Of a DNA stretch of 61,887 bases, positions 13,097 to 46,384 are shown in pieces. The DNA lies in IMG/VR virus record IMGVR_UViG_3300028392_000003, positions 1 to 61,887 of that record; one strand, 5' to 3'. A model generated the notes under the pieces. It ran no database searches and was not told the origin of the DNA. It saw only the letters and a program-made list of their open reading frames with translations. Within the stretch, counting starts at the first letter, position 1, and every line of letters starts with the position of its first letter. The position numbers were made by a program, and so were the translations under genes. The stretch is from a virus.

Positions 13097-13832
13097 TTAC
13101 AACTTTCAAGCGTGATTCCCGAATGCTATCCAGCAACGGGATAACAACTTCCTCGCGGAAGTTTCTGGTGAACGATTCACTACCAATATGGGGCAGACTA
13201 ATGTCTACATCAACGTGAACTGTAAACCCCATATCCGTCGCTCTGTCGCAGAACAAATAGTCTTCGCCAATATATTGGTCATCCTTGATGTCAAAATCAA
13301 ACAGTGCGTACATTCTCTCGCCTGTAGGCTTGTTCTTGTAAGACCACTCAGGGTGCGCTTCCACCATTTCTTCAATCACATGGCGTTGAATCAGCATGAA
13401 CCCTGTGCCGATACGCTTAACCCGCATGAGAGAACCGTCAAACTCAAGGTTTTCGTTCTTGTCCCAATACAGGTCTGTAAAGAATTTCTTGTCATGCGCT
13501 CTGCGTGGGTATGTGCCCGCAGTGATGTCTTTGCCGCTACTTTGCGCCATCAAACGCAAGATGTCATTGGGTGTTACCACAACGTCTGAATCAATAAACA
13601 ACAGTTCTGTGCAATCGGTCTTTAAAAATTCATGCACAAGCGAGTTACGCGCCATCGTAATGATGGAGCAGTTTGAAATATCAGATAGCGTTACAGAAAC
13701 GCCAAGGCGCATAGCTTCTGGCATTAACTGCGCAATAGCATATGCGGTCTTGACGTTCAAACGTCCATCATGGCAGGGTATGCCGATAAACAGCTTACGC
13801 CCTGTCAAAACTGCTTGCTTGGTATCAGCCAT
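13089..13832 (-). CDS. Glycosyltransferase-like protein (GT-A fold)
   Basis: From ATG 13832 the product has 247 residues. It starts with KLFIGIPCHDGR (residues 13-24), continues with ARNSLVHEFL, and carries LLFIDSDVVV (D81-x-D83), the nucleotide-sugar and metal-binding motif of GT-A glycosyltransferases. A later segment GEDYLFCDRA resembles the acceptor-side ED motif of family 2 enzymes. A longer form from 13871 would overlap the upstream gene more and has no ribosome site. Its place among structural genes suggests it glycosylates a virion protein or a host surface polymer; the substrate is unknown. Confidence 0.75.
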   Translation of the reverse strand: MADTKQAVLTGRKLFIGIPCHDGRLNVKTAYAIAQLMPEAMRLGVSVTLSDISNCSIITMARNSLVHEFLKTDCTELLFIDSDVVVTPNDILRLMAQSSGKDITAGTYPRRAHDKKFFTDLYWDKNENLEFDGSLMRVKRIGTGFMLIQRHVIEEMVEAHPEWSYKNKPTGERMYALFDFDIKDDQYIGEDYLFCDRATDMGFTVHVDVDISLPHIGSESFTRNFREEVVIPLLDSIRESRLKVVNG

Positions 13833-19797: not shown

Positions 19798-19984
19798 CTA
19801 TGTCTTCAACTTTCTTTGCAAGGTCGAGTAAGTAACCCTCTGCGATGGCTAGACCATGAATCACCCCACAGAGTTTTTGATATTGTTCAAACGACTGGCA
19901 AGTACCTGCGGCTAGGTCATCTGCGTAGTTGTTCATATCAGTACGTATTTTTTCGCGCAATACGCGTGCGAAGTCTTGGATCAT
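19790..19984 (-). CDS. Small helical protein between portal and GroES-like genes
   Basis: A 64-residue helical protein (RTDMNNYADDLAAGTCQSFE in the middle). It overlaps the portal gene by 4 bp and the GroES-like gene by 8 bp, which supports translational coupling. Proteins of this size and sequence type follow portal genes in related phage genomes. No function is known. Confidence 0.65.
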   Translation of the reverse strand: MIQDFARVLREKIRTDMNNYADDLAAGTCQSFEQYQKLCGVIHGLAIAEGYLLDLAKKVEDIDE

Positions 19985-22452
19985 TTGTTAGTTTTACCCC
20001 TAGTTTGGTTTTGCATTTCTGCCCTGTGTTTGGCTACATCTATTCCTAAACGTAGCCCCTCTTGCTCTTGTTGCGCCGCTTGTTTGGCTTGGCTGTCTTT
20101 AATTTGTGCGCCAACTTTCAAGCCTGCGATTTGCTGTTCTCCGCTTACTTTCTTCTCATCTAACATGAGGCGTGCTTGTGCAAGCTGTGCGTCAGCTTGG
20201 GCTTTTTGCGCTTTAATTTGCACTTCTTGTTGTCTGACCTGCAACTCTTGTTGTTGCATTTGTAGCACTGGGTCTTGTGCATTTTGTTGGGCTTGCATCT
20301 GTGCGGCTTGGCCTTGGCTTTGCTGAAGCACTTGTTGTGCGGCTTGCGCCATCATGCCTGACAAGGCCAACTCAATCTCTGGTGGCAACTTCTCGTCTTC
20401 TGGGGGCAGTGGCATACCCAACTGCTGCTCGATCTTTTGGCGGTATGCGTAACCAACGTGCTCCGTAACGTGCGCCATGATAGCGGCTTGGATTCTTGCG
20501 GCGTTTGGACTTTGTCCTACCAACTGTTGCACGATCGGGTCTTGTAACAGGGACATGTGCACTTTAATATGCGCCTCATGGTCTTGGAACAAGAACGCTT
20601 TAGCCGCACTACCTTTTAACAACGCCATGTTTTCGGACACGGGGTCTTTGGGCTTCTCGTCGTCTGGCAGTGGTATTAACTTATCTGGGTTTTTAATGCC
20701 CAGAACCTCAAGCATCCTGCGATGTAACTGCGGTAAGTCATAAATGTCCGGAGCCATCTGCGCCATCTGAATGACCGCTTGGTACTGCACAACCCGCTGG
20801 CTCATAGTTGCCGCGTTGGGGTCGCTCACAGGAATAATGTCTACGTACGAATAGTCGCCTTGTTTAGCAGAGCGGCTACCAGAGTCTGGGTCATAGTCGT
20901 AGTCTGGGTCGGTATTGTCGCGGATGATGGTTGCAAGGAGCCCTAGTTCTTGTTTGAATGTGTAGTGCAAACGGGCTTGAACAGCCGTCATCACCTTTAG
21001 CTGGCGCTCTAGGAGAGCCAACGTGGTGCCCACAGGAGCCTGTGCCGACATGTCGGACACTTTCATATCCGCTGTAGCCGCAAAGCGCCGGCCTTCTTCC
21101 ACGATTTTGTCGAGGAGTCCAGCCAGTACCGCCGACGGTTCCTTATAGGGAAGGGGGAGGATATTCTCGCGCAGTGCGCCTGAACCAATATCTACATCGC
21201 GGAACTCGCCGGGGGCGATCGGTGTGTCATCACCCTTAATGCGAAGTCCACGAGATTTAAGCCCACCGGGGAGGTTAGACAACGTGCCTGCGTCAACCAA
21301 CTGCCGCATGATGCTTGTGGCTGATTTAGCAAACCCACCGATAAGGTGGAAGAGTCCGAAGCCGTAGGCTCCAAAGCCGGGAATGTATTGGTAGTGCACA
21401 AAGTGCTGGCGCTTGAGTCGTAGGTCATCTTCTTGTTTCCAATTGCGTCGGATGGCTAGTACTTCGTTTGTGCCTTTTATTAGGGTAACTACGTATGGTA
21501 GTGCTATGCCCGTTTCTTCCCCGTCTTCATCTTTGTCTTCGTACCCCTTGATATCCAAGTCAGCATGCACTTCATACAACACATAACGGTCGTCGTTTAA
21601 GTCAGAAAATCCCGTTTCTTTATCTTTGGCTTTTTTGATGTCGTCTTGCGAAGCCTGCATGGGGTCAGGCAAATCCATTTCGCGGTAGAACCCGACTTGT
21701 TGCAGTTTTAATATTTCGTTTTTGGTCTTACGCATGACGTGCGTCACGCGGTAGCAACTATCCATATCTGTCGCGCCATACGGCAAGATGATGTCTTCTG
21801 CTGGGATAAACATCGAGACCTGACGTCCCAAGTTGGGATCATCGTAGACCTTCTTAAAGGCTGAACCTGTGGCTGGCAAACTCCACAACATGCGTTCTTG
21901 TTCTGGGCGGAACTCCTTCATGACCTCAGTCAGTTCGTAGTTCATGTCGTTTTCAACACGTTGCGCGGCTTCTTTTTTCTCTGGCGTTTCTTTACCAATA
22001 ATTTTGGTACGTACCGGTCCCTGCGCAGGGAACATCTCCGTGATTGTCTCGCTCTGGAAGCGTACCACAGCTTCTGTAATCATTGGATGGAACACGCCTG
22101 ACGCGCCGTTCCAAGGTTCTGTACGCTCTTCATACTGGAGGCCAAGCAACTTCAAGCCCTGTGTGTAGGCTTTCTCCCAGTCCTTGCGGGAGTTCTTGTC
22201 GTTTTCAATATCGCCAACCAACTCGCTAGCAAACGAATCCATCGCGCTCTCATCCATCTCTTCCGCCAAGTTAGCGTTAAAGTCTTCTCCATCTTCCTCG
22301 CCCGGCTTAATGCTGATGTCCAGATCACCTGCATGGATGTTGACTTCTTCGGGATCAATGATCTCAATCTCGAAATCATTTGGCTGGTCTTGCGCTAAGT
22401 CTTCAATGCCTTGGGGTTGTGTGTATAGCGCTTTGTCGATATTGGTTGCCAT
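19981..22452 (-). CDS. Portal protein (P22-like, long form)
   Basis: The 823-residue protein has an acidic N-terminus, then NSRKDWEKAYTQGLKLLGLQ and YEERTEPWNGASGVFHPMIT, typical for portals of P22-like and related podoviruses. The body contains MLWSLPATGSAFKKVYDDPN, GFGAYGFGLFHLIGG and TLALLERQLKVMTAVQARLH. The last ~150 residues form a Gln-rich helix (VLQMQQQELQVRQQEVQIKA), like the coiled-coil barrel at the top of the P22 portal. It forms the twelve-subunit ring for DNA entry. It follows the terminase large-subunit gene. Confidence 0.88.
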   Translation of the reverse strand: MATNIDKALYTQPQGIEDLAQDQPNDFEIEIIDPEEVNIHAGDLDISIKPGEEDGEDFNANLAEEMDESAMDSFASELVGDIENDKNSRKDWEKAYTQGLKLLGLQYEERTEPWNGASGVFHPMITEAVVRFQSETITEMFPAQGPVRTKIIGKETPEKKEAAQRVENDMNYELTEVMKEFRPEQERMLWSLPATGSAFKKVYDDPNLGRQVSMFIPAEDIILPYGATDMDSCYRVTHVMRKTKNEILKLQQVGFYREMDLPDPMQASQDDIKKAKDKETGFSDLNDDRYVLYEVHADLDIKGYEDKDEDGEETGIALPYVVTLIKGTNEVLAIRRNWKQEDDLRLKRQHFVHYQYIPGFGAYGFGLFHLIGGFAKSATSIMRQLVDAGTLSNLPGGLKSRGLRIKGDDTPIAPGEFRDVDIGSGALRENILPLPYKEPSAVLAGLLDKIVEEGRRFAATADMKVSDMSAQAPVGTTLALLERQLKVMTAVQARLHYTFKQELGLLATIIRDNTDPDYDYDPDSGSRSAKQGDYSYVDIIPVSDPNAATMSQRVVQYQAVIQMAQMAPDIYDLPQLHRRMLEVLGIKNPDKLIPLPDDEKPKDPVSENMALLKGSAAKAFLFQDHEAHIKVHMSLLQDPIVQQLVGQSPNAARIQAAIMAHVTEHVGYAYRQKIEQQLGMPLPPEDEKLPPEIELALSGMMAQAAQQVLQQSQGQAAQMQAQQNAQDPVLQMQQQELQVRQQEVQIKAQKAQADAQLAQARLMLDEKKVSGEQQIAGLKVGAQIKDSQAKQAAQQEQEGLRLGIDVAKHRAEMQNQTRGKTNK

Positions 22453-22460
22453 GTTGGTCC

Positions 22461-23996
22461 TCAGTAGTAAGCGTGTTGCTTACGTTTAAAAATTATTGGT
22501 TCATCTTTCTCGTCTGTGTCTAACGATATGAACCCGCCTTGTCTGAACCGCATCAGTGCTTGGGATGTAGTATCCACGAAGTCGTCATGCTCTCCAACTG
22601 GGAACGCCGCAACTTCCTCAATCACTTCACGCGCCCAGCGCGTATCCGGTGCCCATACCATGCCTGACGCAAATAAATCCGCAATCGCGTTCAATCGTAC
22701 CATTTTGTCGTTGCCACGGCTAGGGTTTGTCTCCCACGCAGGGATACCCATCGCTCTAAACTCTTGTATAAGTGGCGCTCCCGCAGACTTCTTCTCCACA
22801 ATAAACGCATCAGGCTCCCATTCTCTGTAATGCTTGAGCGCTGTAGCCTTTAACTCTGGGAATGTCATCCTGTCTTTAAACGCATCGAGCAAAATAATCT
22901 GCGCTTTGTGCCCTTCTTCCTCGTTGTAGAACACCCCCCACGTTGTGCATGCCGAATAGTCCGAGTTTGTCTTGACTTCGTGCGCCGTATCCCATGACTG
23001 AATTACATAATCACATACTGGCGGCTCATCTGACTCCCATATACGCCACATTTTGCGAGAAATAACCGCGCTGTTGTCCGAAGTGGGCTGCTGCATGTAC
23101 TGCGCGTTCCAATATCGGGGGTCAATACTGGCTTTGGTAGCCTTTAACGCTTGGAGTGCCCATTGTTCTGGCCATAACGACTTCTCGTTGTCCGTGCCCT
23201 CGTTCAATATGGCGGGTAACTCAACGATTTCCCACGGTACGGACTCAGGATTCTTAGTCTGGTAGTCAATTAGGCGTCCTGTAAGGTCAAGAAGCGACCA
23301 ACGGGTCATGATTACGATGATTGCACCACCTGGCATCAAACGCTGCAAAGGGCCTGTTTGAAACCAAGACCAAGCTGTGTCAAATGCTAGACGGCTGTTT
23401 ACTTTAACGTCTTGTTCCGAATGCGGGTCATCAATAACGAATAGATCAGCGCCGCGCCCAGCAAGCGCTCCGCCGACACCTGCCGCGTAGTACTGTCCGC
23501 CGGCAGAGGTAGACCATTTTCCAGCGGCTTTTTGGTCGTCAGCCACATGCGTTGAGGGGAAGATTTCACGATACTCCTCCGTGTCGATCAAGTTACGAAC
23601 TCTACGTCCAAAGTCTTCAGACAAACCTGCGGTGTGCGTACCCATGATAATCTTCTTATTAGGGTATTTACCTAGGAAGTATGCTGGAAACAAGTAACTA
23701 GAGAACTCAGACTTACCCATACGCGGTGCAATATTAATAATCACACGCTTTTTCTTGCCTTCAATCACATCTTCAAATATTTTGGCTAACTTCTTGTGTT
23801 GCGGTCCAACCTTAAAGCCCGGATACACATGCTTGGCAAAATCTAATATGTCTTCTCTGGCGTTATAGAGAGAGGAGCGGCGTTCGCGCTCCTCAAGCAT
23901 GTCCATAAGCTCAATCTTTTCCTGCACTGTCATGTTAGGCAGCGCTAGTTGGAGTGCTTTTATTTCACTCGGGCTTAGGTTCAGCTTGGCTGTCAT
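22461..23996 (-). CDS. terL: Terminase large subunit
   Basis: The 511-residue protein has an N-terminal packaging ATPase with a Walker A variant APRMGKSE (residues 90-97), Walker B LFVIDD (185-190) and a coupling-motif-like MTRW (230-233). The C-terminal RNase H-like nuclease holds SWDTA (D336), FIVEKK (E401) and HDDFVD (D471/D472). It powers DNA packaging and cuts concatemers. The layout resembles the P22/psiM2-type large terminases. It overlaps the small-subunit candidate by 32 bp and is followed by the portal gene. Confidence 0.93.
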   Translation of the reverse strand: MTAKLNLSPSEIKALQLALPNMTVQEKIELMDMLEERERRSSLYNAREDILDFAKHVYPGFKVGPQHKKLAKIFEDVIEGKKKRVIINIAPRMGKSEFSSYLFPAYFLGKYPNKKIIMGTHTAGLSEDFGRRVRNLIDTEEYREIFPSTHVADDQKAAGKWSTSAGGQYYAAGVGGALAGRGADLFVIDDPHSEQDVKVNSRLAFDTAWSWFQTGPLQRLMPGGAIIVIMTRWSLLDLTGRLIDYQTKNPESVPWEIVELPAILNEGTDNEKSLWPEQWALQALKATKASIDPRYWNAQYMQQPTSDNSAVISRKMWRIWESDEPPVCDYVIQSWDTAHEVKTNSDYSACTTWGVFYNEEEGHKAQIILLDAFKDRMTFPELKATALKHYREWEPDAFIVEKKSAGAPLIQEFRAMGIPAWETNPSRGNDKMVRLNAIADLFASGMVWAPDTRWAREVIEEVAAFPVGEHDDFVDTTSQALMRFRQGGFISLDTDEKDEPIIFKRKQHAYY

Positions 23997-24991: not shown

Positions 24992-25007
24992 GGGGAGGTT
25001 TCTCCCC
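24992..25007 (+). repeat. Palindromic hairpin repeat, copy 1 of 6
   Basis: GGGGAGGTTTCTCCCC forms a 6-bp GC-rich stem with a short loop. It is the first of six near-identical copies, all between early genes. It lies 26 bp before the ribosome site of the gene at 25046. Confidence 0.85.
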
Positions 25008-25506: not shown

Positions 25507-25522
25507 GGGGAGATTTCTCCCC
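25507..25522 (+). repeat. Palindromic hairpin repeat, copy 2 of 6
   Basis: GGGGAGATTTCTCCCC lies two bases after the stop of the gene at 25046-25504 and just before the terminator at 25533. Confidence 0.85.
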
Positions 25523-26337: not shown

Positions 26338-26353
26338 GGGGAGATTCCTCCCC
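26338..26353 (+). repeat. Palindromic hairpin repeat, copy 3 of 6
   Basis: GGGGAGATTCCTCCCC directly follows the stop of the gene at 26099-26332 and marks the left edge of the origin-like region. Confidence 0.85.
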
Positions 26354-26390
26354 ATTTGTTATTTCTACTGCGAAATTACATTTAAAAAAA

Positions 26391-26432
26391 TACCTATCCG
26401 TAATTTCGCACACTATCCAAAAGTTCGGACAC
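26391..26432 (+). repeat. Left arm of 42-bp imperfect inverted repeat
   Basis: Starts TACCTATCCGTAATTTCGCA and ends AAAAGTTCGGACAC. The reverse complement of 26661-26702 matches it at 36 of 42 positions. It contains one GTAATTTCGCA copy. Confidence 0.85.
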
Positions 26433-26660
26433 CGAATTCGTGGCGTCAATGCTGGCGTTCCGACAAAACCGTCCTATATATATATCTATTTATTTATTTA
26501 TATATATAAGGAGGGGAGTATTTATATATGTGCATATTTTCTTGCTTGTAATTTCGCAGGTTTTTATACACCTTTGTATGCTTTGGTTAGTGTCTCCACA
26601 ATTTTGGATAGATACCACGGACACTTTTGCTCCATCGTCAAGGCTCATGCGGGCTACCGA

Positions 26661-26702
26661 GTGTCGCAACTCTTGGATAGTGTAAGAAATAACGGATAGG
26701 TA
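26661..26702 (-). repeat. Right arm of 42-bp imperfect inverted repeat
   Basis: On the minus strand it starts TACCTATCCGTTATTTCTTA and ends AGAGTTGCGACAC. It stops 3 bp before the TATAAT box of the gene at 26736, so a protein bound here would sit over the -35 region of that promoter. Confidence 0.85.
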
Positions 26703-26705
26703 GGA

Positions 26706-26711
26706 TATAAT
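26706..26711 (+). promoter_or_regulatory. -10 box next to the inverted-repeat arm
   Basis: A perfect TATAAT lies 24 bp before the ATG at 26736. No clear -35 box is present; the inverted-repeat arm occupies that place, which suggests an activator or repressor site. Confidence 0.55.
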
Positions 26712-26735
26712 TTCTAATTTCTCTGGAGAAATAAC

Positions 26736-27431
26736 ATGACTTTCGCATACCCCAAATACATAAAACTCACGCTCAATCAAGTGATGACAGATTTATCAAC
26801 GCAAGACCTACCATCACACATCAAACAAGAAATCATCGAAAGCGTGAGAAATGAGAAGCAACGCTTGCGCTCCATCAAGTCGCAGAAGAATCAGCACACA
26901 CGCCTTTGGGCAGAACTACGCCAACCCCTTGAATACGAAATGCGTTTGGTTCGGCGAATGGTTGCCTACAAAAATGGCGAAACCCTGAGAAATGATGCGC
27001 TCAATGGGTATCTTTTGGTGCTTGGGAAATTACACGAGCGACTACACAAACTGTCGCAAGATGGCGCAACCATGCCAAGTGAGGTAGCCAAGGACAAGCA
27101 GTATCCCAACAATGGTGTGCATTGGTCTGACTGGGTTAAGCGTGAGGTCAAAGATGCCGTGCTCGAACTGTTCGATGCGATACCCAAACAAGGGCAGAAG
27201 GTGAAAGTCCCATTCGAGCGCAAGATACCCAAGGCACTACACGCACAACTCAAGTCAAGGCTTAGACAACGCACCGAGAAGGAACTTGTCAACGAGCAAC
27301 GCAAGCAAACAGTGGACTACACCGAGGGGCGGGCGTCCACCATCACCAAGATAACGCAAGCCCTCGCATGGGTAGACGCTAGTGCGGAGGGCGAAGCCTT
27401 GCCAACAACATGGCATGGCTTCTTTAAATGA
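26736..27431 (+). CDS. Basic helical protein downstream of the origin-like region (initiator candidate)
   Basis: The 231-residue protein starts after TCTGGAG and is rich in Lys, Arg and Glu. It contains helical stretches (NEKQRLRSIKSQKNQHTRLW; RKIPKALHAQLKSRLRQRTE) and a segment WSDWVKREVKDAVLELFDAI. I do not recognise a domain. Its location beside the inverted repeats and its charge would suit a DNA-binding protein that acts at those repeats and controls its own promoter, but this is inference. It is bounded by hairpin repeats on both sides. Confidence 0.65.
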   Translation: MTFAYPKYIKLTLNQVMTDLSTQDLPSHIKQEIIESVRNEKQRLRSIKSQKNQHTRLWAELRQPLEYEMRLVRRMVAYKNGETLRNDALNGYLLVLGKLHERLHKLSQDGATMPSEVAKDKQYPNNGVHWSDWVKREVKDAVLELFDAIPKQGQKVKVPFERKIPKALHAQLKSRLRQRTEKELVNEQRKQTVDYTEGRASTITKITQALAWVDASAEGEALPTTWHGFFK

Positions 27432-27449: not shown

Positions 27450-27465
27450 GGGGAGATTTCTCCCC
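27450..27465 (+). repeat. Palindromic hairpin repeat, copy 4 of 6
   Basis: GGGGAGATTTCTCCCC lies 19 bp after the stop of the gene at 26736-27431. A longer stem (TGGGCTA with TAGCCCA, about 27488-27520) follows before the next ribosome site. Confidence 0.85.
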
Positions 27466-28028: not shown

Positions 28029-28044
28029 GGGGAGGAATCTCCCC
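28029..28044 (+). repeat. Palindromic hairpin repeat, copy 5 of 6
   Basis: GGGGAGGAATCTCCCC lies 25 bp before the start codon of the amidoligase gene; the ribosome site TCAGGAG lies between them. Confidence 0.85.
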
Positions 28045-28068: not shown

Positions 28069-29790
28069 ATGAAATTATTCTTTGTCACTTATCGTGATGT
28101 CAATTCAAACTTTTCGCGTGCAATCGTTGGTCAAATCGGCACTAAGTATGCAGTCGCTCGTATCTTTGCAGGTGTTCAGCACAGTGTGTTCAGTGAGGCT
28201 ATGTTCGCAACCTCTCGTTACTCTCGTAACTATGAGACACGCTCTCGTGCCATTCTTGGTGCTCGGCATATCGAAGATGTCCTCAATATTATTGACGATG
28301 TAACTGAGGTGCACATAGCACCGATGACTGCGTATCAACGCAAAATCATCAAGACCTTTGGGCGTGTGATGTATCGAGAGATGCTTAATTCGTTCTACAT
28401 GGTGTCCGATACCGTTAGTCAAAACAGAGTCTACTCACGCTTGGTCAACGAGTATTACAGCACCGATACCAAGCAGGGGTATTTCCAATGGCGTGGCTGT
28501 TCTGTGTATCCCAACAAATACAAACAGGTGCGTCAGTTATATGCTGACCTCGGCAAGTTAGTTGCTCAAGCGGTTCACGATGGCGATACTAGCCCAGTCG
28601 CTGAGTTCATCATGAACGAGTGCACTGGCTCAGGTGTCGACAACATAGCGTTGTATCAGAAGATTAGTGAGGTGCTTGAACTAGACATCACGCACTGCGA
28701 CTGCGGGCATCTTGAACACAACGACAACACGCATGAGGTTGGGCGTCGTAACTCTGACACATGGTGTGACAACTGCTTCTCTGAGGACGCTGTGTATGTT
28801 GAGAATCGTGACGAGTATTGGTCACGAGACGATGCGTATTACCACGAGAGCGATGGCTGTTACTACTCGTATGAGGAAGAAGACGAGTATGACGATGATG
28901 ACGACAGCGACCAAGACAGCGATATGCTCATGTCTTACAGCACCAATGTGCTCAACTTCTTATCCAAGGACACCACCATCAACTCTTCTCCGCATGGCGA
29001 GTTCCTCATGGGTATTGAGTTCGAGATGGAGACCAAGGAGGGTTGCTCAGTCAATGCTGCGGTGTCCGATGTGCGTAGCCAACTCGGTGAGGAGTATTGC
29101 GTGTGTAAGTCAGACGGCTCGCTTGGCTCGTATGGCTTGGAGATTGTGACTGCGCCCCGTGGTCTTGCCGAGCACATCAAACGCTTCAAGAGTTGGGAGG
29201 TTGACTCGAGCTATCGTGCGTGGGATACCAAGCGTTGCGGTCTTCATGTGCACATCGACTCTCATGCGTTCACGCAGATGACTCTCGGCAAGTTTCTTAT
29301 GCTTATCAACAGCGAGAGCAATGTCGAGTTCATACGCAAGATTGCAGGTCGCCATCCCAACACCGATGACCAAGCCCGTAGTTACTGTGCGTCTGAGCAT
29401 CAGTCCATCCTCGTCAACCCCAAGAAGGCAGTCAAGGACAAGTCGCATGAACGCTATCGCATGGTCAATCTACAGAACCTCGGTTGCAAGGAGTCCAAGC
29501 GTCTGACTGGTATGTCCGCATACGAGGGCAAGTATGACACTGTCGAGTTGCGTATCTTCCGTGCGTCTCTCAACAAGCCTCGTATGTTGGCGCAGATTGA
29601 GTTCACTCATGCGTGTGTCAACTTCTGTCGTGTCGCATCGTGGCGTGACTTGAACCAAGTCAGCTTCGTCAAGTGGCTCAAGACTGTATCGAGTCTGTAT
29701 CCCAACCTTGCCGATTGGTATGGCGTGCGTCGTCGCAACACCAAGGTTACTGCTGAGTCGCAATGTCGTGACACAGTTGAGTCAGTTTAA
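28069..29790 (+). CDS. Amidoligase (glutamine-synthetase-like COOH-NH2 ligase) with zinc-finger and acidic linker
   Basis: The 573-residue protein has an N-terminal ~200-residue part of unknown fold, then a probable zinc site (C210, C212, C233, C236) with aromatic/acidic repeats, and a very acidic linker (residues 268-285). The C-terminal half, about 312-560, carries the amidoligase signature: MGIEFEME (314-321), KSDGSL (347-352), LEIVTAP (357-363), CGLHVHID (390-397), RYRMVNLQ (463-470 region) and TVELRIFRAS (491-500). Members of this family are predicted to join amino groups or ammonia to carboxylates using ATP. The next gene is a class II glutamine amidotransferase, a natural ammonia source. 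The substrate is unknown. Confidence 0.8.
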   Translation: MKLFFVTYRDVNSNFSRAIVGQIGTKYAVARIFAGVQHSVFSEAMFATSRYSRNYETRSRAILGARHIEDVLNIIDDVTEVHIAPMTAYQRKIIKTFGRVMYREMLNSFYMVSDTVSQNRVYSRLVNEYYSTDTKQGYFQWRGCSVYPNKYKQVRQLYADLGKLVAQAVHDGDTSPVAEFIMNECTGSGVDNIALYQKISEVLELDITHCDCGHLEHNDNTHEVGRRNSDTWCDNCFSEDAVYVENRDEYWSRDDAYYHESDGCYYSYEEEDEYDDDDDSDQDSDMLMSYSTNVLNFLSKDTTINSSPHGEFLMGIEFEMETKEGCSVNAAVSDVRSQLGEEYCVCKSDGSLGSYGLEIVTAPRGLAEHIKRFKSWEVDSSYRAWDTKRCGLHVHIDSHAFTQMTLGKFLMLINSESNVEFIRKIAGRHPNTDDQARSYCASEHQSILVNPKKAVKDKSHERYRMVNLQNLGCKESKRLTGMSAYEGKYDTVELRIFRASLNKPRMLAQIEFTHACVNFCRVASWRDLNQVSFVKWLKTVSSLYPNLADWYGVRRRNTKVTAESQCRDTVESV

Positions 29791-30917: not shown

Positions 30918-30933
30918 GGGGAGGTTTCTCCCC
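30918..30933 (+). repeat. Palindromic hairpin repeat, copy 6 of 6
   Basis: GGGGAGGTTTCTCCCC, extended by C and G to a 7-bp stem, follows the amidotransferase gene and is followed by GCATTTTTT, so this copy looks like a working terminator. Confidence 0.85.
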
Positions 30934-36363: not shown

Positions 36364-36638
36364 GACAAACCAAAGAAGCCTTGGAGTTCATGACAAAACT
36401 TGACCAGCTATCAGAAGAGAAACGCGATCACTTGCGCCTGATCTTCAAAGGGTTGGTTGACTGTTGCTTGGACGACAAGATGCACGGGGTCGTGGTACTG
36501 GGGCACGAGGACAGCCACGCGGGTATCTTCACCCTTAACTGCAACGAGATGGAAGCAGCGTTCATACTGAACCAAGTCACGGGTAGTTTCAACGATATGA
36601 ACATGGCGGGTGCGCCAGCCAAGGAGATGTTTAATTGA
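36339..36638 (+). CDS. Protein of unknown function next to DNA polymerase
   Basis: From ATG 36339 (ribosome site GAGGAG) the product has 99 residues (KEALEFMTKLDQLSEEKRDH; IFTLNCNEMEAAFILNQVTG). Its TTGA end overlaps the TTG start of the polymerase gene. No family is recognised; the position suggests a replication accessory protein. Confidence 0.65.
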   Translation: MEPTRHTLGQTKEALEFMTKLDQLSEEKRDHLRLIFKGLVDCCLDDKMHGVVVLGHEDSHAGIFTLNCNEMEAAFILNQVTGSFNDMNMAGAPAKEMFN

Positions 36639-38599
36639 AACCATTCGACAGAATAATAACGATTGACTTTGAGACCCGATGGGCTAAGAAGGACTACACA
36701 TTATCAAAACTAACAACAGAGGAGTACATACGTGACCAACGATTCAAGGCATTTGGACTATGCGCCCATGAGTACGGGAGTGATGAACCAATTAGATGGG
36801 TTAGCGGAAGAGACTTACCTGAATTCTTTTCTGGAATCGACTGGGGACGAACCGCCGTGCTTGCGCATAACGCACAGTTCGATATATCCATCTGTGAGTG
36901 GGTCTACGATATTCACCCAGCCTTTATCTTCGACACGCTATCAATGGCGCGAGCTTTACGTGGCGTGGAAGTTGGCAATAGTCTCGCCAGACTCGCAGCG
37001 GATTTTGGACTACCAGCAAAAGGCACCGCCGTTTATTCAACTGATGGAGTTCACGAGCTACACCCCACGCTCGAAGGAGAACTCGCTGAGTACTGCAAAC
37101 ATGATGTGTTTCTGTGCGAAGAAATATTCAAACGGTTGGTTGTATCCTATCCACAGAAGGAGCTAAGACTCATAGACATGACGCTCAAGATGTACACGCA
37201 ACCAATGTTAATTCTTGATCCCAATATGTTGACCGATGCCATACTAGAAGAAAAGGAGAAGCGTGATGAATTATTACAAAGGCTCGGCGTGGAGGAAACT
37301 TCGCTCGCGTCGAATCCAAAGTTTGCGACCTTACTTGACGCGCTTGGGGTGGCTGTCCCCACCAAAGTCAGTAAAACTACTGGCAAGCAAACGCTTGCGT
37401 TGGCTAAGAACGATGCGATGTTCCAAGCGTTACTCAACGGTGAACGTGAAGACGTTGCCCTCCTTTGTGAAGCGCGCCTTCGGGTTAAATCTACCACCGA
37501 GCGCACAAGGGCTCAGAGATTCCTCGACATTAGTCAACGCGGTGCCTTACCAGTTCCTCTCTCCTACTACGGTGCGGCGACGGGTCGTTGGACGGCAGCC
37601 AAAGGCTCGGCCATCAACATGCAAAACCTCAAGCGTGGTTCATTCTTACGCAAAGCGGTTATGGCTCCCCAAGGTAGCCAGCTTGTCGTTGGTGACTTAT
37701 CGCAGATTGAACCGCGAGTACTCGCGTGGCTTTCGGATTACTCAGAGATGCTTGAAATCTTCCGGTCAGGAGGTGACCCTTACGCAGCGTTCGGTGCGCA
37801 GATGTTTAACATACCCGGACTTAGTAAGGAATCGCACCCAGATTTACGGCAGTCTGCGAAGAGCGCACTCTTGGGTTGCGGATACGGTTTGGGCTGGGCT
37901 TCATTTGCGTCCCAACTCCTTACTGGCTTCCTTGGTGCTCCGCCAGTCAGGTACGACATGGCTTTCGCGAAAAAGCTGGGTGTCACGAAGGAAGTTGTTG
38001 AGCGTTTCATAGACTGGGACGAGAACGTCGAGAAGATGCGGGAGATTCCCCACACTTGTAGCGAGAAAGAATTGCTCATCCACTGCGTGGCTTCCAAGAA
38101 GATCATCGACATCTACCGCTCGACTGCTACGCCTGTGGTTGACTTTTGGGGGATGCTTGGACAACTCATTGAGACGAGCCTGTACGGGGGCAAGGAGTAC
38201 ACCTACAAATGCCTGACGTTTAAGAAGGAGGCAATCGTTCTGCCCTCTGGTATGAGCCTGCTGTATCCTGACTTAAAGCGCACCAAGGACGACAAGGGTA
38301 GGCCGCAGTGGACATACGGACAGGATTCGACTAAACTGTATGCAGGTAAGATAACAAACAACATCACGCAAGGCGTAGCAAGATGCGTGATGACAGACGG
38401 GATGCTCCGCGTAGCAAAGAGATATCCAGTCAAAGGCACGGTACATGACGAGTTGATCGCCGTTGTGCCAGATGCAGAGGTTGATGACGCTAAGACTTGG
38501 GTCTTGGCGCAGATGACTATGGAGCCACGGTATATGCCGAGGATTCCACTAGACGCTGACGGTGGCGCGCACCGTAGATACGGGTTAGCAAAACAATAG
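36635..38599 (+). CDS. Family A DNA polymerase with 3'-5' exonuclease
   Basis: The 654-residue protein starts with TTG (36635) after AAGGAG. The N-terminal DnaQ-like exonuclease has DFETR (D11, E13), AHNAQFD (D83) and YCKHDV (D157). The polymerase part shows motif A VGDLSQIEPR (D354), motif B RQSAKSALLGCGYG (R405, K409, Y417) and motif C VHDELIA (H604-D605-E606). No 5'-nuclease domain is present. It should be the replicative polymerase of the phage. Confidence 0.93.
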   Translation: MKPFDRIITIDFETRWAKKDYTLSKLTTEEYIRDQRFKAFGLCAHEYGSDEPIRWVSGRDLPEFFSGIDWGRTAVLAHNAQFDISICEWVYDIHPAFIFDTLSMARALRGVEVGNSLARLAADFGLPAKGTAVYSTDGVHELHPTLEGELAEYCKHDVFLCEEIFKRLVVSYPQKELRLIDMTLKMYTQPMLILDPNMLTDAILEEKEKRDELLQRLGVEETSLASNPKFATLLDALGVAVPTKVSKTTGKQTLALAKNDAMFQALLNGEREDVALLCEARLRVKSTTERTRAQRFLDISQRGALPVPLSYYGAATGRWTAAKGSAINMQNLKRGSFLRKAVMAPQGSQLVVGDLSQIEPRVLAWLSDYSEMLEIFRSGGDPYAAFGAQMFNIPGLSKESHPDLRQSAKSALLGCGYGLGWASFASQLLTGFLGAPPVRYDMAFAKKLGVTKEVVERFIDWDENVEKMREIPHTCSEKELLIHCVASKKIIDIYRSTATPVVDFWGMLGQLIETSLYGGKEYTYKCLTFKKEAIVLPSGMSLLYPDLKRTKDDKGRPQWTYGQDSTKLYAGKITNNITQGVARCVMTDGMLRVAKRYPVKGTVHDELIAVVPDAEVDDAKTWVLAQMTMEPRYMPRIPLDADGGAHRRYGLAKQ

Positions 38600-38606
38600 G
38601 AGAAGC

Positions 38607-38915
38607 ATGCAGATACCAAAGAAAATTAGAGTCGGTCATAAATGGTACAGCGTGGAAGTTGTCGAGGCTATGGCCGAGAAAGGTTACATGGGCAAGGTTT
38701 ACTACCCTGAACAAAAAATCCGAATCGGTTTAGCCAACACACAGACAGGCCAGAAATTTAAACAAACCGATGTAAACGATACGTTCTGGCATGAGTTAGT
38801 GCACGCAATACTTGACGACATGGGGTATGACACCTTAAATCGTAATGAGCGATTCGTGACGGGTTTTGCCAAGAGATTAACCAAAGCAATAGAGACTGCG
38901 AAATTCAATGACTAA
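38607..38915 (+). CDS. HExxH-motif phage protein (minigluzincin-like)
   Basis: The 102-residue protein contains FWHELVHAILDDMG (H62-E63-xx-H66), with a downstream Glu (E81) as a possible third zinc ligand. Small phage proteins with this motif are common next to replication genes; some are annotated as ImmA/IrrE-like or SprT-like. It may be a metalloprotease that degrades a host regulator. Starts after AGGAGAAGC. Confidence 0.7.
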   Translation: MQIPKKIRVGHKWYSVEVVEAMAEKGYMGKVYYPEQKIRIGLANTQTGQKFKQTDVNDTFWHELVHAILDDMGYDTLNRNERFVTGFAKRLTKAIETAKFND

Positions 38916-39573
38916 AGTTGTTTGGAGCCACAGCTCCCTTAAAGACTATGAAGGCTGCGCTCGTCGCTACCACGAAGTAAAGATTCTTAAGAAGTACCCC
39001 TTCAAAGAAACCGAAGCCGTGTTGTATGGCAAAGAGCTACACAAAGCAGCCGAAGATTATGTTGGTAAAGGGGAGCCGTTGCCCCAACAATTTGAGTTCA
39101 TTAAAACTACGCTAGACGCGTTGATGGCTAAGCCCGGTCGCAAGTTGGTCGAGTACCAAATGGCGTTAACCGAAGACCTACAGCCCACAGGTTGGTTTGA
39201 TAAGGACGTGTGGGTTCGGGGTGTGGCTGACTTGTTGATACTAGATGACGAGAACATGACTGCATGGGTGGTTGACTACAAGACGGGCAACAACAAATAC
39301 CCTGATCGTGAGCAACTCAAACTCATGTCTCTCATGGTCTTCGCCAACTTCCCACACATTCGAGAAATCAAATCCGCCTTGCTATTCGTAGTTAAAAACG
39401 ATATGGTTAAGCACGCCATGACCGTTGACCAAACCGATGCAGAGTGGTGGAGATACAGAGAACGCGTCGGACGCATAGCGGCCTCGATGGACGCTGATGT
39501 GTGGAACCCAACACGCACCCCGTTATGCGGATGGTGCCCAGTTAAATCATGCGAATTTCATAAGGAGCACTAG
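38908..39573 (+). CDS. PD-(D/E)XK exonuclease, RecB/Cas4-like with probable Fe-S cluster
   Basis: The 221-residue protein has SHSSLKDYEGCARRYHEVKI at the N-terminus (C17), GKELHKAAED (H45), VWVRGVADLLIL (D108) and WVVDYKTG (D123-x-K125), the RecB-family catalytic core. The C-terminus has CGWCPVKSC (C207, C210, C215). One N-terminal and three C-terminal Cys match the 4Fe-4S staple of Cas4/AddB-type nucleases. It probably acts in recombination or end processing. No CRISPR locus is present. Confidence 0.8.
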   Translation: MTKVVWSHSSLKDYEGCARRYHEVKILKKYPFKETEAVLYGKELHKAAEDYVGKGEPLPQQFEFIKTTLDALMAKPGRKLVEYQMALTEDLQPTGWFDKDVWVRGVADLLILDDENMTAWVVDYKTGNNKYPDREQLKLMSLMVFANFPHIREIKSALLFVVKNDMVKHAMTVDQTDAEWWRYRERVGRIAASMDADVWNPTRTPLCGWCPVKSCEFHKEH

Positions 39574-39825: not shown

Positions 39826-41388
39826 ATGGAAATAATCGAAGACAAAGCACTCTTACTACGAACCAGAACCCCAGAAAAATACAGCATCATTCCACGCAGT
39901 CAGATCGTTGAGCAATACGATGATGGGTCTGCGGATGTTGCTGTCTTCTGGGGACTGGATGAAGCACGCGTGCTTAAAAACATGGGCGTTAAAAACGTAC
40001 CATCCCCCATCACGAAACGCTACAACTGGCCGGGCAAGTACAAGCCTATGGAGCACCAAGTTACAACGTCTTCGTTCCTCACACTACATCGCAAAGCGTT
40101 TGTGTTCTCCGAACCCGGCACAGGCAAGACATTGTCGGCGCTATGGGCAGCAGACTACCTGATGCAACGCGGTGAGGTTCGTAGGTGTTTGATACTGTGC
40201 CCGCTCTCCATCATGCAGTCAGCGTGGATGCAAGACTTAAACGCCAGCATCATTCACCGTAGCGCAGTCATCGCACACCACCCACAAGCATCTCGTCGCA
40301 TCGAGATGGTTCAACAAAAATACGACTTTGTCATCACCAACTACGAGGGCTTGAACCTTATAGCGGACGAGATAAATTCCAACGGCAAGTTTGATTTGGT
40401 TATTGTGGATGAGGCAAACGCGTACAAGACCGTTACTACTCGGAGATGGAAATCACTGCAATCCATCATCAAACCCGATACCCTGTTGTGGATGATGACT
40501 GGCACGCCAGCATCGCAATCTCCTGCGGATGCTTATGGCTTAGCGAAGTTGGTAAACCCAAGCGGAGTCCCGAAGTTCTACACAGCGTGGCGGGATCAGG
40601 TAATGAATAAGGTGACGCTGTTTAAGTGGGCACCGAAAGCAAATGCGGCGGAGCAAGTGCACGAAGCGCTTCAACCCGCTATACGCTTTACCAAGGAAGA
40701 GTGCTTGGATTTACCACCTGTTATAACGATGACCCGCGAGATTATGTTGACACCGCAACAAAGAAAGTATTACGACTTACTCAAAGAACGTATGCTCATT
40801 CAAGCGGCGGGCGAAACAATCAGTGCGGTCAACGCGGCGGCAGGTGTCTCCAAACTATTACAGATTTCATGTGGTGCTGCTTACACCGACGACGGTGAGG
40901 TGGTTGAGTTTGATGCTGCGCCCCGCTTGTCGGTACTGGAAGAGATACTGACAGAGACCTCAAGGAAAGTAATTGTGTTTGCTATGTTCACTAGCAGTAT
41001 CGACGCCATCATCAAACACCTTGCCAAACAAAACATACCAGCAGAAATGATTCGTGGAGACGTGCCGGCATCCAAGCGTGGTGACATCATCCGCCGATTC
41101 CAAACTGACCCAGAACCCCGCATCCTCGTGATGCAACCACAAGCAACCGCACACGGCATCACATTGACCGCCGCTGATACAGTTGTTTTCTACGGCCCAC
41201 TGATGTCTGTTGAACAGTACATCCAGTGTATTGCCCGCGCTGACCGGAAAGGTCAGACTTCCGACAAGGTTACAGTTCTTCACATAGAAGGTAGCCCGAT
41301 AGAGAAGAAGATGTTTAAAGCATTGACTTCCAAAGTGAGTGACCACTCACTCTTAACACAGTTGTTCGAGAATGAAATTAAATCTTGA
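39826..41388 (+). CDS. SNF2-type helicase / translocase
   Basis: The 520-residue protein has helicase superfamily 2 motifs: SEPGTGKT (95-102, Walker A), LVIVDEANAY (191-200, DExx box), MMTGTPAS (223-230), a VIVFAMFTSSID strand and motif VI ARADRKGQTS near residue 470. This is the pattern of compact phage SNF2 translocases. It could remodel replication or recombination intermediates. It lies in the replication gene cluster. Confidence 0.88.
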   Translation: MEIIEDKALLLRTRTPEKYSIIPRSQIVEQYDDGSADVAVFWGLDEARVLKNMGVKNVPSPITKRYNWPGKYKPMEHQVTTSSFLTLHRKAFVFSEPGTGKTLSALWAADYLMQRGEVRRCLILCPLSIMQSAWMQDLNASIIHRSAVIAHHPQASRRIEMVQQKYDFVITNYEGLNLIADEINSNGKFDLVIVDEANAYKTVTTRRWKSLQSIIKPDTLLWMMTGTPASQSPADAYGLAKLVNPSGVPKFYTAWRDQVMNKVTLFKWAPKANAAEQVHEALQPAIRFTKEECLDLPPVITMTREIMLTPQQRKYYDLLKERMLIQAAGETISAVNAAAGVSKLLQISCGAAYTDDGEVVEFDAAPRLSVLEEILTETSRKVIVFAMFTSSIDAIIKHLAKQNIPAEMIRGDVPASKRGDIIRRFQTDPEPRILVMQPQATAHGITLTAADTVVFYGPLMSVEQYIQCIARADRKGQTSDKVTVLHIEGSPIEKKMFKALTSKVSDHSLLTQLFENEIKS

Positions 41389-43323: not shown

Positions 43324-46221
43324 ATGAACCCGCTTGAATTCCTAGCGGTGGTTTTGCCGTCTCCGGGTCACGGGGCGTATTGCACGGCGGAACTGTCTAA
43401 GAAAAAAGAACATCTATTCTCGGAGAACTTGGATGACTTTTACCCCAAGGTTGACACTTGGGTGGAGCAGAAGGCTGATGTATTTTTTGCATTGGCTACA
43501 TTCGATGACGCAAAGAAACGCAAGGCAGAGAACGCCCGTTTCATCAAAGCGCTGTTCATCGATATGGATGGGTATGACACCAAGAAGCAAGCTGCATACG
43601 CGCTTAAAGCATTCCTTGCCGAGACTGGCTTGGACTTACTTGGCACGCCGTGGATTGTTGGCTCTGGTGGAGGGCTGCATTGTTACTGGCCGTTCAATGA
43701 AACAGTAGAGATTGCTGAATGGAAACCGCTTGCAGAGAACTTCAAACGCTTGTGCAAGCAACAAAAACTCAGCATCGACATGACTGTGACGGCGGACGCC
43801 GCTCGTGTGCTACGCATACCTGAGACGTTTAACTTCAAAGCCAAGTACGAAACCCCACGCCCAGTCAAGTTACTGGCAGAGGGCGACACATTTAACTTTG
43901 AAGATTTGAAAGCTCACGTAGTGAGCCAGTTAAAGAGTATTGCCCCAGTCTCTGCACTGACGGCTCTGCCCGGCAAACGCCCAACCAACGCCCCCACCAC
44001 GCCCCTGTCTACGACTGCCGTGACCCTGTTCGAGAACAGCACGACTAAGTTTGGCAACATCTTTAAGAAGACTAAGGCGGGTACAGGCTGTGCCCAGTTG
44101 CGCCACTACGCAGAGAACGCTAGTGATGACGGCATGGAGCCCTTGTGGCGTGGGTGGTTGAGTATTGCTAAGCCCTGTTCGGATGCAGAGAAAGCGACAA
44201 TATGGTTAACGGAACTGCACCCCTACACGCATGAGCGTATGCAACAAAAGCTGGCCGAGATAAAGGGTCCCTATCCATGTGTCAAGTTCGATAGTGAAAA
44301 CCCCGGCATCTGTGATGGCTGTCAGCACTTTGGAAAGATAACAAACCCACTGGCGCTTGGACGCGAGATCATGCTCGATACCTCCCCTAAAGAGATTGAA
44401 GTGCATGTACCGACTACGAGCCCATCGCTCCATGAAGAAGTGCGTAAAGTACTTCGCCCTACCCCACCTAAAGGATACGCATACGGTGCGCGTGGTGGTG
44501 TATTCATGGAGAAAGAAGACGAGGATAGCCAAGGCAACAAGACCAAGCGACAGATCATGATCTTGCCGTACGAGTTGTTTGTCGTGGACATTCTTCGTCA
44601 CAACGGAGAGCACACAGTGCACATGCTTTGCATGCGCCCTGAAGGTGTTGAGACAGTCACCATGTCCCAAAAGGCTGTGGTGAGTAAAGACGAAACGGTC
44701 AAAGCGCTTGCGCTTCAGAACGTAATTGCCTCTTATGGTTCGGGCAACGACAAGAACCTATTTGATTATGTAAGGGCGAGTGTGGAACAAGCAAGTACTG
44801 GGAAGGCCCCCGTTAGAGTGCCTACAAACTATGGCTGGCAAGAAAACGATACGTTCGTTTTTGCTGGGAAGATTTTTTCTAAGGGTATGCCGCCTGTAAG
44901 CGTGCCGATGCCGGGTCTGGAGAACATTGTCTCCAACACCAAACCAACAGGAACGATTGAGGCATGGCGCACATTTGTGCAGATGCTTATTAAGAAGGGG
45001 ATGTGGGAGCACCTAACAATCATGTTGGCTGGAGCAAGCGCTCCGCTGATGCGCTTCACGGGTATCTATGGCATCACATACCATTGTGGTTCGACTGAGT
45101 CGGGTACAGGCAAGTCGCTTGCGCTAGAAGCCGCCGCTTCCATCTGGGGTCACCCAGTCCACTACCGCACGGGTAAGAGCACATCGCCTGTTGCCATGCA
45201 ACAGCGTCTTGGTTTGCTTTGCAGCATGCCTTTGATTACTGATGAGTTGACTAGTAAGAACCGCGCTAACTTTGAATGGTTGCCTGAGTTCCTACTGGAT
45301 ATGACTGAGGGTCGGGGCAAGGAGCGCATGGAGTCAGGCGCTAACAAGGAACGTATCAACTTGTCGACATGGATGACCAACGCGATCATGTCATCTAATA
45401 CCCACGTCGTAGACGGCTTAACTGGTGGACGCAAGCACTCATCTGAGGGCGAGTTGCGACGCTTGCTGGAATTCATCCTGACCCAAGAGTTAGCGTGGGA
45501 GCCATACGAGATCGAGGTCATCAAGTCGTTGCATAGCAACTACGCAGTAGCAGGCCACATGTTGTCGCAGTACATGGTGGACAACTTAGACCGCCTACAT
45601 AAAGATGTACCTGATTCTGTCGTGCAGATGTACAAAGAGTTTGGCGCTACTAACGATGAGCGTTTCTGGATGGCTGGCATCGGCACCATCATCATGGCGG
45701 CAGTGCTTATGAAAGACGCGGGCGTTGTGAATATCCCAGTCAAGCCTGTGATTGCTTGCTTGAAGAAGGTGGTGCACTCGATGCGGGGCAACATCAAGGC
45801 CAATGTGCGTAGCGCGGAAGATGTGTTGAATTCCTATGTGCGTGAGAGTTATGGACACTTTATTGTCATCCGCAACATGGAGTCAGGCATCTTGGCAGAA
45901 CTTGGCGGTGGCGGAGAAGTTGACAAGGCTACAACACGTTCAGAAATTATGGGTCGCGTTGAGCACGGATTCACGCCAGACCACGTAGACTTCTATATTG
46001 AGGAACAACTGCTTAAAGCCTACTGCTCGTCAATGAGTTTTGGTTATGCGGACTTTAAGCGTCAGTTGGCAGGGCAGTTCACCGTGTCGCATATGGCTAA
46101 GAAGGACATGACTGCTAAGACTCAAGGCCCCCAGATGCGCGTGTCAGTGCTCAAGATAAGCCGTCGAATTTCTGATATGGACAATGAAGCTAAAAATACA
46201 CTATCCGTGGGATCAGACTGA
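43324..46221 (+). CDS. Primase-helicase: AEP-like primase fused to DUF927-type ATPase
   Basis: The 965-residue protein has an N-terminal archaeo-eukaryotic primase-like domain: LFIDMDGYD (D80, D82), VGSGGGLHCYWPF (112-124) and DMTVTADAARVLRIPETFNF (152-171). A Cys-bearing linker (CVKF...CDGC, near 320-337) may bind zinc. The C-terminal ATPase has GSTESGTGKS (about 589-598) as Walker A and LITDEL (about 637) as Walker B, then NAIMSSN, in the DUF927/primase-helicase style. It should prime and unwind DNA at the phage fork. Confidence 0.85.
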   Translation: MNPLEFLAVVLPSPGHGAYCTAELSKKKEHLFSENLDDFYPKVDTWVEQKADVFFALATFDDAKKRKAENARFIKALFIDMDGYDTKKQAAYALKAFLAETGLDLLGTPWIVGSGGGLHCYWPFNETVEIAEWKPLAENFKRLCKQQKLSIDMTVTADAARVLRIPETFNFKAKYETPRPVKLLAEGDTFNFEDLKAHVVSQLKSIAPVSALTALPGKRPTNAPTTPLSTTAVTLFENSTTKFGNIFKKTKAGTGCAQLRHYAENASDDGMEPLWRGWLSIAKPCSDAEKATIWLTELHPYTHERMQQKLAEIKGPYPCVKFDSENPGICDGCQHFGKITNPLALGREIMLDTSPKEIEVHVPTTSPSLHEEVRKVLRPTPPKGYAYGARGGVFMEKEDEDSQGNKTKRQIMILPYELFVVDILRHNGEHTVHMLCMRPEGVETVTMSQKAVVSKDETVKALALQNVIASYGSGNDKNLFDYVRASVEQASTGKAPVRVPTNYGWQENDTFVFAGKIFSKGMPPVSVPMPGLENIVSNTKPTGTIEAWRTFVQMLIKKGMWEHLTIMLAGASAPLMRFTGIYGITYHCGSTESGTGKSLALEAAASIWGHPVHYRTGKSTSPVAMQQRLGLLCSMPLITDELTSKNRANFEWLPEFLLDMTEGRGKERMESGANKERINLSTWMTNAIMSSNTHVVDGLTGGRKHSSEGELRRLLEFILTQELAWEPYEIEVIKSLHSNYAVAGHMLSQYMVDNLDRLHKDVPDSVVQMYKEFGATNDERFWMAGIGTIIMAAVLMKDAGVVNIPVKPVIACLKKVVHSMRGNIKANVRSAEDVLNSYVRESYGHFIVIRNMESGILAELGGGGEVDKATTRSEIMGRVEHGFTPDHVDFYIEEQLLKAYCSSMSFGYADFKRQLAGQFTVSHMAKKDMTAKTQGPQMRVSVLKISRRISDMDNEAKNTLSVGSD

Positions 46222-46384
46222 GAAGGGGCAGGGGTTCTTTGTCCCCTGCCTTGATACGGATGCCGTGCGCGAAGAAGGATTAAAGCAAGCAGTACGCCTG
46301 CGTATCCTTGACGCCAAAGCCTACCCCTCAATCCGCAACGAACTTATCGGGGTGTGGTTTCACCGAGTCGGGGTAAAGACCTAA
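46184..46384 (+). CDS. Small conserved protein at the end of the rightward operon
   Basis: The 66-residue protein (MKLKIHYPWDQTEKGQGFFV; PCLDTDAVREEGLKQAVRLR) overlaps the primase-helicase gene by 38 bp. The pattern of PWD, GxGFFVPCLD and a basic helix occurs in small phage genes after replication modules. The function is unknown. Its last 41 bp overlap the end of the convergent giant gene. Confidence 0.6.
   Translation: MKLKIHYPWDQTEKGQGFFVPCLDTDAVREEGLKQAVRLRILDAKAYPSIRNELIGVWFHRVGVKT

Follow-up and report, generated by a model that had tools for sequence, protein, structure and literature searches.

An approximately 380-base non-coding stretch of an uncultured phage genome is a real, conserved DNA element, whose long inverted arms enclose an A/T core. 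The same mirror layout recurs in dozens of related phages even though the sequence of the arms changes, and it is therefore probably where these phages start to copy their DNA. We consider it fairly probable, from the sequence comparisons described below, that the region is a palindromic replication origin with a central unwinding element, which would work in a similar way to OriS and OriL of herpesviruses. Three findings make this the best-supported reading: relatives share the layout, no duplex in the genome is softer than the core, and the skew, once corrected for strand, agrees with it.

The window (the whole stretch of DNA analysed here, a 61,887-bp IMG/VR virus record) belongs to a large family of uncultured freshwater phages. 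The element lies near the switch between late and early gene orientations, after a small gene that ends in a hairpin and before an open reading frame of unassigned family, which we label P0001. Its parts and the main genes are listed in Table 1. Searches of phage and plasmid records found no similar DNA, and a search of bacterial genomes returned a short match to a single MAG contig, so that no prophage and no host was identified. A scan of viral contigs with the pattern GCGAAATTACATTT returned mostly unrelated contigs.

Table 1. Parts of the element and main genes, with positions in the window.
Feature	Position	Strand or direction	Basis or remark
GGGGAGATTCCTCCCC hairpin ending upstream gene; left border of element	26338–26353	+	similar hairpins after several neighbouring genes
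Left arm; its outer part is variable, with CTATCC at 26394 and 26413	26357–26432	+	relatives too have a matched pair
Left copy of inner motif B, in degenerate form: CGTCAATGCTGGCG; family consensus AACCCGCATGAACACTAGCG	26444–26457	+	sequence, family alignment
Left inner motif C: AAAACCGTCC; family AAAACTGTCC	26465–26474	+	family alignment
A/T core, candidate DNA unwinding element	26475–26509	.	34/35 A/T; inside genome's least stable 60-bp duplex; best conserved segment across relatives
Conserved right flank of core (GGAGGGGAGTATTTATATATGTGCATATTTTC), then T-rich stretch	26510–26545	+	consensus of relatives
Mirror copies, on the right, of TATCTATC and motif C (plus strand reads GGATAGATACCACGGACACTTTT)	26606–26628	-	family alignment
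Right mirror of motif B (AGCCCGCATGAGCCTTGACG on minus strand)	26636–26655	-	family alignment, motif search
Right arm, up to start codon of next gene	26661–26736	-	inverted-repeat search
TATAAT, likely -10 of downstream gene promoter	26706–26711	+	sequence; -10-like boxes here in relatives
P0001, fast-evolving all-helical protein, family unassigned; candidate arm-binding protein	26736–27431	+	adjoins element in every relative with both genes
Portal	19981–22452	leftward	late gene
Terminase large subunit (TerL)	22461–23996	leftward	late gene
PolA-type DNA polymerase	36635–38599	rightward	early gene
PD-(D/E)XK exonuclease	38908–39573	rightward	early gene
SNF2-type helicase (SF2)	39826–41388	rightward	early gene
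Primase/helicase with DUF927	43324–46221	+	early gene; alternative candidate initiator; divergence tracks that of element

Some further features of these genomes were seen. The GGGGAGA-TCTCCCC hairpin is repeated at 24992–25007, 25507–25522, 26338–26353, 27450–27465, 28029–28044 and 30918–30933, and sits after several small genes, resembling a standard short terminator; relatives have different stems at the hairpin site (GGGGACA..TGTCCCC, CGGGTCA..TGACCCG). An amidoligase-like protein is encoded among the early genes at 28069–29790 (PF12224, E 5e-7), and a minus-strand open reading frame at 46344–54227 (2627 aa) spans one eighth of the genome. One related contig (G007) has terminase sequence at both ends (1–306 and 60416–61939), which suggests that this genome is circularly permuted and nearly complete at about 62 kb.

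The initial annotation had described two 42-bp inverted arms with 36 matches, and the alignment of 26391–26432 with 26661–26702 gives exactly this number. No other inverted pair of 42 nt occurs in the window (at least 32 matches, arms within 640 bp). The full repeat is longer than first noted, with arms of 76 bp (78%, E 7e-12, about 1e-11) that run from just past the GGGGAG..CTCCCC hairpin to the A of the P0001 start codon. The third, partial copy of the arm is present though weak (26592–26611, 20 nt, 80%), and the A/T stretch and the TATAAT box adjoining the right arm are also as described. The absence of a supported gene from the gap likewise holds up, because in one relative (L006) a 10-nt deletion falls within the gap's longest open reading frame. 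The second motif family fared less well: TGCGAAATTAC does occur in three exact copies, at 26369–26379 (+), 26400–26410 (-) and 26548–26558 (-), and nowhere else in the window, but it belongs to the variable region and does not qualify as a conserved iteron; L006 lacks the third copy through a deletion.

Conservation was analysed using the homologous upstream regions of relatives, comprising 86 unique regions in 50 sequence clusters, of which 25 clusters could be anchored on both sides and were used for analysis by zone. An A/T core flanked by long inverted arms lies upstream of a P0001-type gene in nearly all of the 86 regions, and in 11 of 14 long contigs no other close inverted repeat is as strong as this one. 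The outer arms (zone A) are nearly unrelated in sequence between different phages, yet within one phage the left arm equals the right at 61% of positions, as against 36% for permuted partners (z 11.6; 25 clusters). The inner parts behave differently. Two inner motif pairs (CCGCATGAA..CTAGCG and AAAACTGTCC) and the A/T core are conserved across phages. Motif B (zone B, AACCCGCATGAACACTAGCG) is conserved in both arms, with little covariation at its variable positions (z 2.8, against z -0.4 for the invariant part); zone C, AAAA[C/G]TGTCC, covaries weakly (z 4.4); and the core (zone D) has the consensus GTCCTATATATATATCTATTTA..TATATATATAGG. The motifs conserved in the family are CCGCATGAAcaCTAGCG, AAAACTGTCC, TATCTATC and TRTCC, and not TGCGAAATTAC. 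In two of the genomes (G004 and G022), high-scoring copies of motif B in both arms occur only at the element. In another relative (L387) the right half of the element contains two tandem copies of part of the right arm (CGCCCATATAAATCAA.GACTTA), which looks like an arm duplication. The initial annotation had tied its reading to arms conserved along with the flanking genes; the arm sequence is not conserved, whereas the matched mirror pair is.

Arms that differ between phages and yet stay matched are what would be expected of an RNA stem, and the region could in principle be a large structured RNA whose arms form the long stem of a transcript of about 380 nt, either a leader or a free RNA. The transcript folds far better than shuffled sequences (RNA z -9.0), and the arms compensate for each other between phages. 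However, a mismatch-tolerant RNA stem should contain G-U pairs far in excess of A-C pairs. The mismatches in zone A comprise 61 of G-U type, 80 of A-C type and 208 transversions (900 cells); isolated mismatches comprise 26, 40 and 59 respectively, and neither strand is strongly favoured. There is no G-U excess, and we therefore conclude that the arms are matched as DNA and not as an RNA stem. Because G-U is not favoured, the strong fold reflects the inverted repeat itself, and any inverted repeat gives such a score. The conserved inner pair, motif B, covaries little, and a search of Rfam gave no match to the region. A structured RNA is on these grounds decidedly unlikely. We infer that the arms may be kept alike by a DNA-binding protein that reads both of them, by mutual DNA conversion, possibly through a single-strand hairpin, or by both. 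A two-base CG/GC difference that is swapped between the arms in the window and L006 hints at exchange between arms.

The case for a replication origin begins with the layout and with the stability of the duplex, calculated from nearest-neighbour energies. In 13 of 14 long contigs no 60-bp duplex of the genome is less stable than the one at the A/T core, and in the other contig it ranks second least stable, as would be expected of the unwinding element of a theta-type origin. The mirrored motifs B and C and the matched arms could supply the conserved inverted initiator sites that such an origin has beside its unwinding element. Against this reading, the polymerase and primase genes are 10–17 kb away, and neither the structure search with P0001 nor the count of DnaA boxes pointed to a known initiator family. 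The initial annotation had proposed an origin layout with iterons, to be checked by the cumulative GC skew; of this proposal the conserved layout and the soft core stand, while the supposed iteron TGCGAAATTAC and the raw skew do not. The raw minimum at 26–27 kb and the maximum at 46 kb are explained by gene orientation: the skew turns exactly where the orientation flips and so says nothing about replication, and we did not use it as evidence.

Skew was also calculated with strand correction, using fourfold-degenerate sites and a bidirectional fork model with gene strand as a covariate. For each of the six exploratory genomes the fork model peaks no further than 0.1 genome from the element, and the pooled likelihood ratio for these is 40 at the element with a maximum of 52 at 0.04. 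A gene-by-gene analysis with shuffles gave z 2.9 for the six exploratory genomes and z 1.5, in the same direction, for eight held-out genomes, three of which are not positive. The corrected skew points weakly to the element and is suggestive only, the genomes being related and some contigs perhaps incomplete. With TerL held constant, similarity of the element correlates with that of the primase-helicase (partial r 0.48, p 0.008) and of P0001 (0.46, p 0.008), and not with that of the portal (0.03). These correlations are compatible with a role in replication without proving contact.

Two other types of origin do not fit. DnaA boxes (TTWTNCACA) are not enriched (2 observed against 2.6 expected in 47 elements), making DnaA an unlikely initiator. 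An iteron origin has multiple direct repeats of one site of about 20 bp; here the repeats are mirrored, TGCGAAATTAC is not conserved, and TRTCC, although enriched, is short. TRTCC is also not a genome-unique initiator site, since it is 3.5-fold enriched over shuffles but has its densest window at the element in only 6 of 14 genomes.

Candidates for the protein that reads the arms are the P0001 product and the primase-helicase. P0001 has more than 300 relatives in viral contigs and is present within a few kb of the terminase in all 15 terminase-bearing contigs, while no homologue was found in the annotated phage collection. Searches of Pfam, PHROGs and PDB gave no family or structure match, and only models from uncultured phages match. 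AlphaFold predicts confidently (pLDDT 94) an all-helical structure, whose viral structural matches are likewise confined to uncultured phages; P0001 is a candidate for a new protein family with a novel all-helical fold. It carries a conserved NxGxHWTDW motif. Among the proteins compared it evolves fastest, with a mean identity of 33% as against 63–80%, as would be expected for the reader of changing arms, and its arm binding is putative. For the DUF927 primase-helicase no solved relative was detected.

If the element is an origin, the candidate phage initiator would bind both arms head to head, the A/T core would then melt, and the phage replisome (PolA-type polymerase, DUF927 primase-helicase and SNF2 helicase) would load and depart in both directions. 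The outer arms and their reader protein would change together from phage to phage. In many members the right arm holds the promoter of P0001, and binding to the arm could therefore autoregulate that gene.

The promoter also lends itself to a different explanation, already raised in the initial annotation: a large operator, in which a phage regulator, perhaps the P0001 protein, would loop the DNA by binding both arms and would control an early promoter at the edge of the right arm. The TATAAT box adjoins this arm, and 30 of 50 clusters have a -10-like box at that edge where 8.7 would be expected; many of these boxes belong to the extended TGnTA type. Moreover the same gene is always directly downstream, and the similarities of the element and the gene product are correlated. 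The operator survives as a rival on this evidence, but the origin is better supported: the other 20 clusters lack such a box and most of them still keep the arms, and an operator has no need of two inner motif pairs far from the promoter, or of a conserved core softer than any other duplex in the genome. We regard an operator as unlikely. A site for packaging, recombination or resolution, with the palindrome read by a terminase, recombinase or resolvase, appears very unlikely. Long inverted repeats are typical recombinase substrates, the TerL gene is only some 2–3 kb away, and the swapped two-base variant is what arm conversion would produce; however, no aligned relative has the segment between the arms inverted, the element has no identified recombinase gene next to it, and packaging sites do not need the softest duplex. 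Finally, template switching or conversion alone can make arms match within a phage, so that an unconstrained intergenic gap might be kept palindromic by replication and repair errors (quasi-palindrome correction) and have no function of its own. To this we give scarcely any credence, since motifs B and C, the A/T core, and their order and spacing are conserved across phages in which the neighbouring protein averages 33% identity.

Origins of lytic phages have been mapped in few model systems, and our literature search found none described for this abundant freshwater group. If the reading as an origin is true, many uncultured genomes would reveal by their sequence where replication starts, and arms that match each other but differ between lineages offer a testable case of co-evolution between origin and initiator, which perhaps lets co-infecting phages keep their replication apart. 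Counting G-U against A-C mismatches tells a matched DNA palindrome from an RNA stem.

Several known systems can be compared with the element. Phage DSL-LC04 from Dishui Lake (L417), one of the nearest annotated relatives by TerL (about 51%), has a 45-bp inverted repeat (84%; 13469–13513 and 13645–13688, with 131 bp between the arms) in a gap between genes that precedes a rightward operon; its sequence is not homologous, and it has no long A/T core and no P0001 homologue, so that it serves as a lead only. P4-type replicons have a phage primase-helicase (alpha) together with ori and crr, and a primase-helicase is a possible initiator here too, but P4 has two distant sites rather than one compact palindrome, and an origin-binding role for the DUF927 protein is putative. 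Lambda-type origins, with O protein iterons and an AT-rich region, share the repeated sites beside an AT-rich stretch and the link to early genes; the lambda iterons are repeats inside the initiator gene, whereas the sites here are mirrored and outside the gene, and no O-like protein was found. The layout resembles that of herpes simplex OriS and OriL, where dimers of the origin-binding protein UL9 on inverted boxes flanking an AT-rich spacer bend and destabilise the spacer (PMC12543377). The likeness is one of layout only, in the inverted boxes around an AT-rich spacer. The herpes origins belong to another virus realm with another initiator and have fixed short boxes, whereas these phage-specific arms exceed such boxes by tens of bp; and the helicase seen in the window, as compared with UL9, is an unlinked SNF2-type SF2 protein. 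We do not assign the element to the herpes-type origins, because a homologous initiator is hypothetical and the arms are long and lineage-specific. It may instead represent a new class of phage replicator, a tentative and rather doubtful proposal, in which long phage-specific arms would be read by a fast-evolving initiator of a new family (P0001), giving each lineage a private pair of origin and initiator around a fixed core and fixed inner motifs.
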